DNA of 64,000 nt, taken from the NCBI RefSeq assembly GCF_900110295.1, contig NZ_FODF01000001.1:186001-250000 (forward strand), in the 5' to 3' direction. The position numbers and the translations under genes are program-made. Position 1 is the first letter of the stretch; each line of letters starts with the position of its first letter. The DNA comes from Peptostreptococcus russellii (lineage in GTDB: Bacteria > Bacillota > Clostridia > Peptostreptococcales > Peptostreptococcaceae). Positions 34,978 through 36,646 of this stretch are shown piece after piece. The notes beneath the pieces were generated by a model, which was given only the letters and a program-made list of their open reading frames with translations, had not been told where the DNA came from and did not search any database.

Positions 34978-34999
34978 AGACACATAATAATTAATCCAT

Positions 35000-35267
35000 T
35001 GAAGAGAAAGAGTAGCTTACGAAATTCTTTTATAGAGAGTCGATGATGGTGGAATATCGGCAAAGTAGAGTGAGTGAATGGGTCTCAGAGGAGTGAATCG
35101 AAATAATAGTAGACTTCACCGTGGGCTGCACGTTATAGCGGATAGGGAATCATGTCGTTCCTGAATTAGAGATGTACAACTGTATTTTATTATAGTTTTA
35201 TAGTTGTATAAATTAGGTGGCAACGCGAATTGATACTTCGTCCTATATATAGGGCGGAGTTTTTTTA
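35000..35267 (+). promoter_or_regulatory. T-box leader specific for tRNA-Trp
   Basis: Senses uncharged tRNA-Trp. The stem I entry GAGAAAGAGTAGC, a specifier TGG (Trp) at 35079-35081 followed by a purine, and the T-box core AGGTGGCAACGCG at 35215-35227 are all visible. A terminator with arms ACTTCGTCCT (35235-35244) and AGGGCGGAGT (35251-35260) and T-run to 35267 follows. An AT-rich hairpin (about 35177-35208) precedes the T-box core. The tryptophan transporter downstream agrees with the specifier. Confidence 0.95.
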
Positions 35268-35344: not shown

Positions 35345-35896
35345 ATGAGAAATTCAAAGACTAAGAAGATGATTTTAAACGCAATTTTATTGGGGATAGG
35401 ACTTATTTTACATCAAATATTTCCTGCAATTGGCGGAGGTATAACACCTGATATATCTTTAGTAATGCTATTCTGTATTATGGTAATAAACAAAGATGAT
35501 TACAAATCTTGTTTGCTAGCAGGTATTGTTGCAGGTTTATTTGCAGCCATGACAACAAAGTTCCCAGGAGGACAGATTCCAAACGTAATAGACAAATTTG
35601 TTACAGTAAATGTTATGTATCTTGTAATGAAGCTTCTGTTCTTAAATCCATTTATTGAAAAGTTGGAAAAAAAGGGAAATCAGATTGTAATAGTAGTTAT
35701 GACATTTATAGGAACGATAGTAAGTGGTTTAGTGTTCTTATCTACAGCATCAATAGTAGTTGGATTACCAGCAGGATTAACTCAGTTATTTGTTGCAGTA
35801 GTATTGCCAGCAACAGTAATTAATATTATAACAGCTGTGATTCTTTATAATATAATAGCTGTATCTCTAAAAAGAACAAGCTATCAAATTGGATAA
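35345..35896 (+). CDS. trpP: Tryptophan transporter TrpP
   Basis: 183-residue membrane protein with about five hydrophobic segments. The sequence NAILLGIGLILHQIFPAIGGG, ISLVMLFCIMVINKDDYK and TTKFPGGQIPNVIDKFVT are typical of the TrpP/YhaG group. These are proposed tryptophan importers, similar in size to S components of ECF systems. CGGAGGAA precedes the ATG. The upstream Trp T-box gives independent support for the substrate: the gene should be switched on when tRNA-Trp is uncharged. No trp biosynthesis gene is in the window. Confidence 0.93.
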   Translation: MRNSKTKKMILNAILLGIGLILHQIFPAIGGGITPDISLVMLFCIMVINKDDYKSCLLAGIVAGLFAAMTTKFPGGQIPNVIDKFVTVNVMYLVMKLLFLNPFIEKLEKKGNQIVIVVMTFIGTIVSGLVFLSTASIVVGLPAGLTQLFVAVVLPATVINIITAVILYNIIAVSLKRTSYQIG

Positions 35897-36271
35897 GTAA
35901 AAGATCTTCCCAATACTTTTTAGATGAAGCGGAGTTTCTTTATTAGAAGTATTAATATAGGAAATAGTTATAAAACTCCAACTTGATTTTGTAGCTAAGT
36001 TGAAGTCAAAGAAATTTTAAATAATAATATAATAATTTTAAGTAAATAATATCGCTAGTGCGATTTTATAAAATATAATATATAAAAAGCTTACCTAAAA
36101 ACAGAGCAGGATTACCTGCTTTGTTTTATTTTTAAAAATTAATTGTTTCAATAGAGTTATTATATAATTCACTTTAAAAATAAAAGTTAAGTTATAAGCT
36201 TTAGAAGAAAAATAGGATTACCAAGTTTAAAAAGTTATTGATTTGAAAAATTACATATACTAATTTTGTAA
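35897..36271 (+). terminator. Region after trpP with a terminator-like hairpin
   Basis: AAACAGAGCAGG (36099-36110) pairs with CCTGCTTTGTTT (36115-36126, with inner mismatches), followed by TATTTTT; this is the likely trpP terminator. A small ATCGC/GCGAT hairpin lies at 36051-36064. Otherwise the stretch is AT-rich with no gene. Confidence 0.6.
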
Positions 36272-36443
36272 AATAAAAAGAGAGCAGATTATGTCTGCTC
36301 TCAGGTGCTTAGTAACCGTACAAGTAATTTTTTATATTTATTTAAAAGAGAAATATAACTATGAGAAACTATTTATATGAAGAGGAAAAGTCATGAAAAC
36401 AACTTTAAAATATAAATAGTAAAAAAATCTAAGCACCTATTTA
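36272..36443 (-). ncRNA. Structured small RNA of about 170 nt, uncharacterised
   Basis: Read on the minus strand, a strong promoter (see 36450-36478) is followed by an RNA whose ends pair. AGGTGCTTAG near the 5' end (36429-36438) and CTAAGCACCT (36303-36312) form a perfect 10-bp helix. Inside are two more perfect helices: an 11-bp stem (36410-36420 with 36368-36378) holding a 31-base loop that includes CTTTTCCTCTTC, and an 8-bp stem (36351-36358 with 36332-36339) with loop CTCTTTTAAAT. The 3' end is an ideal terminator, GAGAGCAGA/TCTGCTCTC with TTTTTATTT. No frame of useful length with a ribosome site is present. CU-rich loops suggest pairing with Shine-Dalgarno sites; 6S RNA is an alternative. 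Confidence 0.78.
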
Positions 36444-36449
36444 AAGTTT

Positions 36450-36478
36450 ATTATAGTAGAAAATTATTTTTTAGTCAA
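36450..36478 (-). promoter_or_regulatory. Consensus promoter of the minus-strand small RNA
   Basis: On the minus strand TTGACT (36473-36478), a 17-base spacer and TATAAT (36450-36455). Start of transcription is predicted near 36443, about five bases ahead of the terminal helix. Confidence 0.8.
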
Positions 36479-36577
36479 TAGCTATATTAAGAAAGTTTGA
36501 AATTTACAGTTAACTTTAATTATAAATATATATTATTGATATTTCATAAAAAAGCTGCATTTATAAAATACTAGTAT

Positions 36578-36610
36578 AAAAGGCATACCCTAAGGGTATG
36601 CCTTTTTATT
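36578..36610. terminator. Terminator downstream of the YhgE/Pip gene
   Basis: AAAAGGCATACCC pairs with GGGTATGCCTTTTT around a short loop; it is nearly symmetrical and can end transcription in either direction. It lies just past the minus-strand gene's stop. Confidence 0.88.
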
Positions 36611-36646
36611 TTAATATTTAGCTAAACATATAAATATGTTTCCAAA

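Follow-up and report, generated by a model that had tools for sequence, protein, structure and literature searches.

The minus strand of the 64,000-nucleotide Peptostreptococcus russellii sequence analysed here (the window) carries a predicted small RNA gene between trpP and a gene for an ABC-2/YhgE-like membrane protein. The anatomy of the locus and the statistics attached to it support the reading as a small RNA gene well. The account that we consider probable is that of a stand-alone, lineage-restricted sRNA with a SigA-type promoter and closed ends, which would act in trans, independently of Hfq, by pairing with ribosome-binding sites. The features on which this account draws are as follows.

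36578..36606, minus strand: terminator hairpin of the ABC-2/YhgE-like gene, separating that gene from the RNA gene
36450..36478, minus strand: promoter TTGACT-17-TATAAT, sigma-70/SigA-type, 11 of 12 consensus bases
36275..36442, minus strand: predicted small RNA of about 167 nt with paired ends, MFE -40 kcal/mol, z -5.85
36429..36438, minus strand: 5' arm of the closing helix, AGGUGCUUAG, perfect 10 bp
36368..36420, minus strand: first junction arm, 11-bp outer and 8-bp inner stem
36379..36386, minus strand: bulge UCCUCUUC, unpaired in the fold and, in the pairing test, complementary to Shine-Dalgarno-like GAAGAGGA
36359..36367, minus strand: junction segment UUCUCAUAG, unpaired in the fold
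36332..36358, minus strand: second arm, an 8-bp stem of A-U pairs, loop CUCUUUUAAAU (36350-36340)
36303..36312, minus strand: 3' arm of the closing helix, CUAAGCACCU, directly next to the terminator
36275..36302, minus strand: intrinsic terminator GAGAGCAGA-CAUAA-UCUGCUCUC-UUUUU, with a 9-bp stem, 5-nt loop and U tract
36098..36127, plus strand: trpP terminator

A predicted free-standing transcription unit

The two ends of the unit can be read directly from the DNA, and both had been proposed in a preliminary description of the locus. The consensus promoter given there is borne out at 36478-36450, and its spacing predicts a transcription start at about 36443-36442 on the minus strand. While this promoter is the top-scoring of the 7 promoter-like sites in the surrounding kilobase, that number is at chance level (7.1 expected from shuffles), so that the promoter is persuasive by its position alone. 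Terminator-like sites in the kilobase number 6, against 0.3 expected in shuffles, and the terminator that had been called ideal is found at 36302-36275, abutting the terminal helix as described. No Fur, PerR or CodY box is recognisable at the RNA promoter, the best Fur-box candidate having 5 mismatches to TGATAATNATTATCA.

Upstream of the RNA, on the same strand, lies the gene for the 794-aa ABC-2/YhgE-like membrane protein, which has its own terminator; our scan listed this hairpin (36578-36606) on the plus strand, and on the minus strand, too, the palindrome has TTTTATAC at its end. The convergent neighbour on the other strand is trpP, which is under a T-box and likewise has its own terminator. 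Because no gene follows the RNA on its strand and none is overlapped by it, the RNA does not qualify as a leader or as a classical antisense RNA. Its own promoter and terminator, together with the lack of a protein frame and of an overlapping or downstream gene, are general properties of trans-acting sRNAs. The trpP gene and its T-box leader (35345-35896 and 34990-35248) adjoin a sigA-trmK-nif3 cluster, and the 64-kb window contains two T-boxes and one lysine riboswitch.

The earlier view that the RNA contains no protein frame is upheld, as the longest frame inside the RNA stretch spans 29 aa and neither a clear ribosome-binding site nor a family match was found. This 29-aa frame (36291-36380, plus strand) overlaps the RNA and has a hydrophobic N-terminal half, as might be expected if the RNA were part of a type I toxin-antitoxin system and antisense to the frame. 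We regard such a system as very unlikely, since the terminator hairpin contains the start of the frame, the scan showed no plus-strand promoter nearby, the frame matches no family, and short hydrophobic frames are to be expected in such DNA.

The RNA is predicted to fold into a closed three-way junction

The MFE and centroid structures concur in a closing helix and two arms, forming a three-way junction. The RNA of about 170 nt with ends paired over 10 bp that had been described is thereby recovered, at about 167 nt and with a perfect helix. The predicted 5' end of the RNA lies about four bases ahead of this closing helix, the loop that the helix encloses measures 116 nt, and the terminator hairpin abuts it with zero bases between. 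With the terminator included, the fold is more stable than 200 of 200 dinucleotide shuffles (z -5.85); without it, z is -3.74 and again none of 200 shuffles is equally stable. Of 20,000 dinucleotide shuffles, 39 offered a perfect 10-bp partner to the bases next to the terminator; a partner for this exact closing-helix 10-mer appeared in 0 of 20,000 shuffles of the upstream sequence.

Within the ring, the first arm consists of an outer 11-bp stem (36420-36410 with 36378-36368) and an inner 8-bp stem (36406-36399 with 36394-36387) that includes two G-U pairs, while the stem of the second arm pairs 36358-36351 with 36339-36332. The preliminary description had named an 11-bp and an 8-bp internal stem, both of which are present where it placed them. 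The inner stem of the first arm was absent from it and pairs part of what it had taken as a CU-rich loop, CTTTTCCTCTTC, so that only UCCUCUUC (36386-36379) is single-stranded there. Of the 62 residues left unpaired within the ring, 34 are U, 11 C and 4 G, a composition rich in C/U and poor in G.

Comparison with known RNAs

No Rfam family matches the RNA stretch, even at E<=10 in a search of 35900-36646, and this includes the 6S, raiA and RsaE families that had been singled out as comparisons. A 6S-like RNA had been raised as the alternative identity, and a second 6S RNA would suit the length, the paired ends and the free-standing gene. However, the 6S model (RF00013) has no match here at E<=10, the canonical 6S RNA of this genome lies elsewhere (G000:C30:231576-231767, 49.1 bits), and 6S RNAs form a single extended hairpin opened by a large central bubble, whereas the window RNA is predicted to form a two-armed three-way junction. 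As far as models and folds can tell, these differences rule out 6S identity, and we hold a second 6S RNA to be highly improbable.

The raiA RNA (RF03072) is likewise a free-standing structured RNA, of about 200 nt, and is ruled out because its model has no match here and the raiA of this genome is found elsewhere (G000:C33:115786-115994). The Firmicutes sRNA RsaE/RoxS resembles the window RNA in its pyrimidine-rich loops, which are proposed to bind Shine-Dalgarno sites, but the two differ in length and fold, and the UCCC motif characteristic of RsaE is absent from the unpaired segments of the window RNA. With no covariance model match at E<=10, this identity is ruled out as well.

The nearest functional counterpart that we found in the literature is IsrR, the iron-sparing sRNA of Staphylococcus aureus (PMC9410917). 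In IsrR, single-stranded C-rich regions are complementary to ribosome-binding sites; the window RNA has three pyrimidine-rich unpaired segments, whose pairing scores are given below. While the segments of IsrR are runs of C4-7, those of the window RNA are U-rich with short C runs; its ends, unlike those of IsrR, are closed by a 10-bp helix, and an IsrR-like Fur box is missing from its promoter (5 mismatches at best). The window RNA, compared with IsrR through Rfam, lacks the Fur box and is not assigned as a member.

Possible pairing with ribosome-binding sites

An Hfq gene was not detected in this genome (Pfam PF17209), which is rated 100% complete and in which the positive controls were found; an RNA that works independently of Hfq is therefore to be expected. 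We compared the pairing of RNA segments with the 45 ribosome-binding sites of the window, using gene interiors and shuffled segments as controls. The three pyrimidine segments pair with these 45 sites better than with gene interiors, while a fourth, non-pyrimidine segment has no such preference. When the strictly unpaired segments are scored, they beat 92-94% of their own shuffles (0.06-0.08 as good), which is marginal; with flanking paired bases they beat 99.7% (0.003 as good). Any C/U-rich RNA pairs to some degree with Shine-Dalgarno sites, and the scores point weakly to the blocking of ribosome-binding sites by the window RNA. Searched across the genome, the 12-nt complement of the main loop proved hardly enriched (64 sites; the reversed control gave 55), with no exact match at any ribosome-binding site; the sole site that does not fall in a long sense frame lies antisense to the gene for an AraC-like regulator.

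Joined to a flanking U, the junction segment reads UUUCUCAU, which is complementary to the start of trpP, AUGAGAAA, in an 8-nt match. The duplex of the junction segment with the trpP ribosome-binding site (-9.9 kcal/mol) ranks first of the 45 in the window, and this post hoc match makes the neighbouring trpP one candidate target. Regulation in trans through loops that bind Shine-Dalgarno sites, as originally suggested, is thus plausible, with the strict pairing scores and the want of a 12-nt target at a ribosome-binding site counting against it.

Rather than mRNAs, the partners of the pyrimidine-rich loops might be an RNA-binding protein or some other RNA, making the window RNA a decoy, scaffold or sponge. 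Titrating RNAs include those of the CsrB type and sRNA sponges, and closed ends with several CU-rich loops would suit such a function. As no motif is repeated identically and no partner has been identified, we consider this use of the loops quite unlikely.

The RNA appears restricted to one species

The RNA appears to be a species-restricted orphan, in the sense that no relative was found at the sensitivity of our searches, single-sequence models being insensitive to diverged relatives. DNA searches returned short chance matches only, A+T-rich in 100 related genomes and likewise short in plasmid and phage collections, and viral contigs held no relative of the RNA. Across 71 same-family genomes, a single-sequence covariance model that included the terminator found the RNA itself only (193.9 bits), its weak foreign matches (<=31 bits) aligning mainly to the terminator. 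A model without the terminator also found only the RNA itself in 9 genomes of the genus; the best foreign match (21 bits, E about 1) falls within a long open frame. Among the weak matches of the model with the terminator, those in a genome from a related genus (G046; L050, L053, L054 and L055) represent a repeated element, the terminator palindrome GAGCGTAGACaaaGTCTACGCTCTTTT, present there in at least 4 copies.

The order yhgE-trpP is conserved in 6 of the 7 same-genus genomes that have a yhgE homologue, and the trpP genes of same-genus genomes are 59-71% identical. In these six genomes 95-272 nt separate the two gene ends, compared with 756 nt in P. russellii, and the gap does not contain the RNA. 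We therefore place the RNA in a lineage-specific stretch of about 400 nt.

A stretch of this kind, together with paired ends that recall the a1/a2 arms of retrons, could suggest a retron-like or other mobile-element RNA. Yet the RNA stops at a terminator of its own and is not followed by a reverse transcriptase, its neighbours are trpP and the ABC-2/YhgE-like gene, it is single-copy in its own genome and it has no Rfam match, all of which make such an origin extremely unlikely.

Of more weight is the possibility that these roughly 400 nt of lineage-specific, A+T-rich DNA hold a young, neutral transcription unit without function, assembled by chance or from the debris of an older element. That six same-genus genomes lack the RNA at the corresponding site, and that no other genome searched has it, would fit this reading, as would promoter-like sites no commoner than in shuffles and the weak evidence for targets. 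However, a perfect, G+C-containing 10-bp helix that abuts the terminator and begins about 4 nt past the expected start is very unlikely to arise by chance, and such a closing helix would erode under A+T-rich drift. On balance we judge a neutral unit to be unlikely.

The closing helix, with 101-131 nt of unconstrained loop, also served as a search pattern for about 85,000 genomes; 5 stretches were found, compared with an estimated 7 or so expected for uniform bases. The locus L057, from an Acholeplasmatales MAG, has the same ten pairs, an abutting terminator and a fold z of -6.65, and no Rfam match. It was rejected as a relative because its orthologues retain the 5' arm and alter the 3' arm without compensation; a further reason is that its 3' part shares sequence with a cysK-like gene's end and terminator. 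We take its resemblance to the window RNA to be a coincidence.

Two other elements were seen in the course of these comparisons. L057:160-345, together with L066, L067, L068, L070 and L077, represents an intergenic element that is conserved among Acholeplasmatales MAGs, folds strongly and has no Rfam match, in which a GAGGTGCACCAG stretch is nearly invariant and whose 3' part recurs at the end of the cysK-like gene with a terminator. Trueperaceae MAGs (L056, L058 and L059) contain imperfect repeats rich in CTAAGAAGACGC-type units, which in two different genomes are flanked by the same CTAAGCACCT inverted repeat and are possibly a repeated mobile element.

A model for the RNA

In the account that we favour, that of a stand-alone sRNA, the SigA-type promoter would drive a transcript of about 167 nt, whose 5' and 3' ends would be locked by the 10-bp helix stacked on the terminator hairpin. 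Locked ends should confer resistance to exonucleases and independence from Hfq. The closed ring would display three pyrimidine-rich single-stranded segments, UCCUCUUC, UUCUCAUAG and CUCUUUUAAAU, and these would most likely block the translation of mRNAs by base-pairing with their start codons or purine-rich ribosome-binding sites, with trpP, through AUGAGAAA at its start codon, as one candidate. A bolder version, which we think improbable, would make the RNA a new class, a closed ring free of Hfq that carries several anti-Shine-Dalgarno loops, regulates many mRNAs including trpP and arose within one species.

Judged from its sequence, the gene looks real but ordinary: a new and apparently species-restricted orphan, and by itself one among many lineage-restricted sRNAs, a very common kind. 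A clean orphan sRNA candidate, it belongs to a genome without a detected Hfq and occupies a position left empty in related species; from it one could learn how structured sRNA genes originate and gain stability in the absence of a chaperone.
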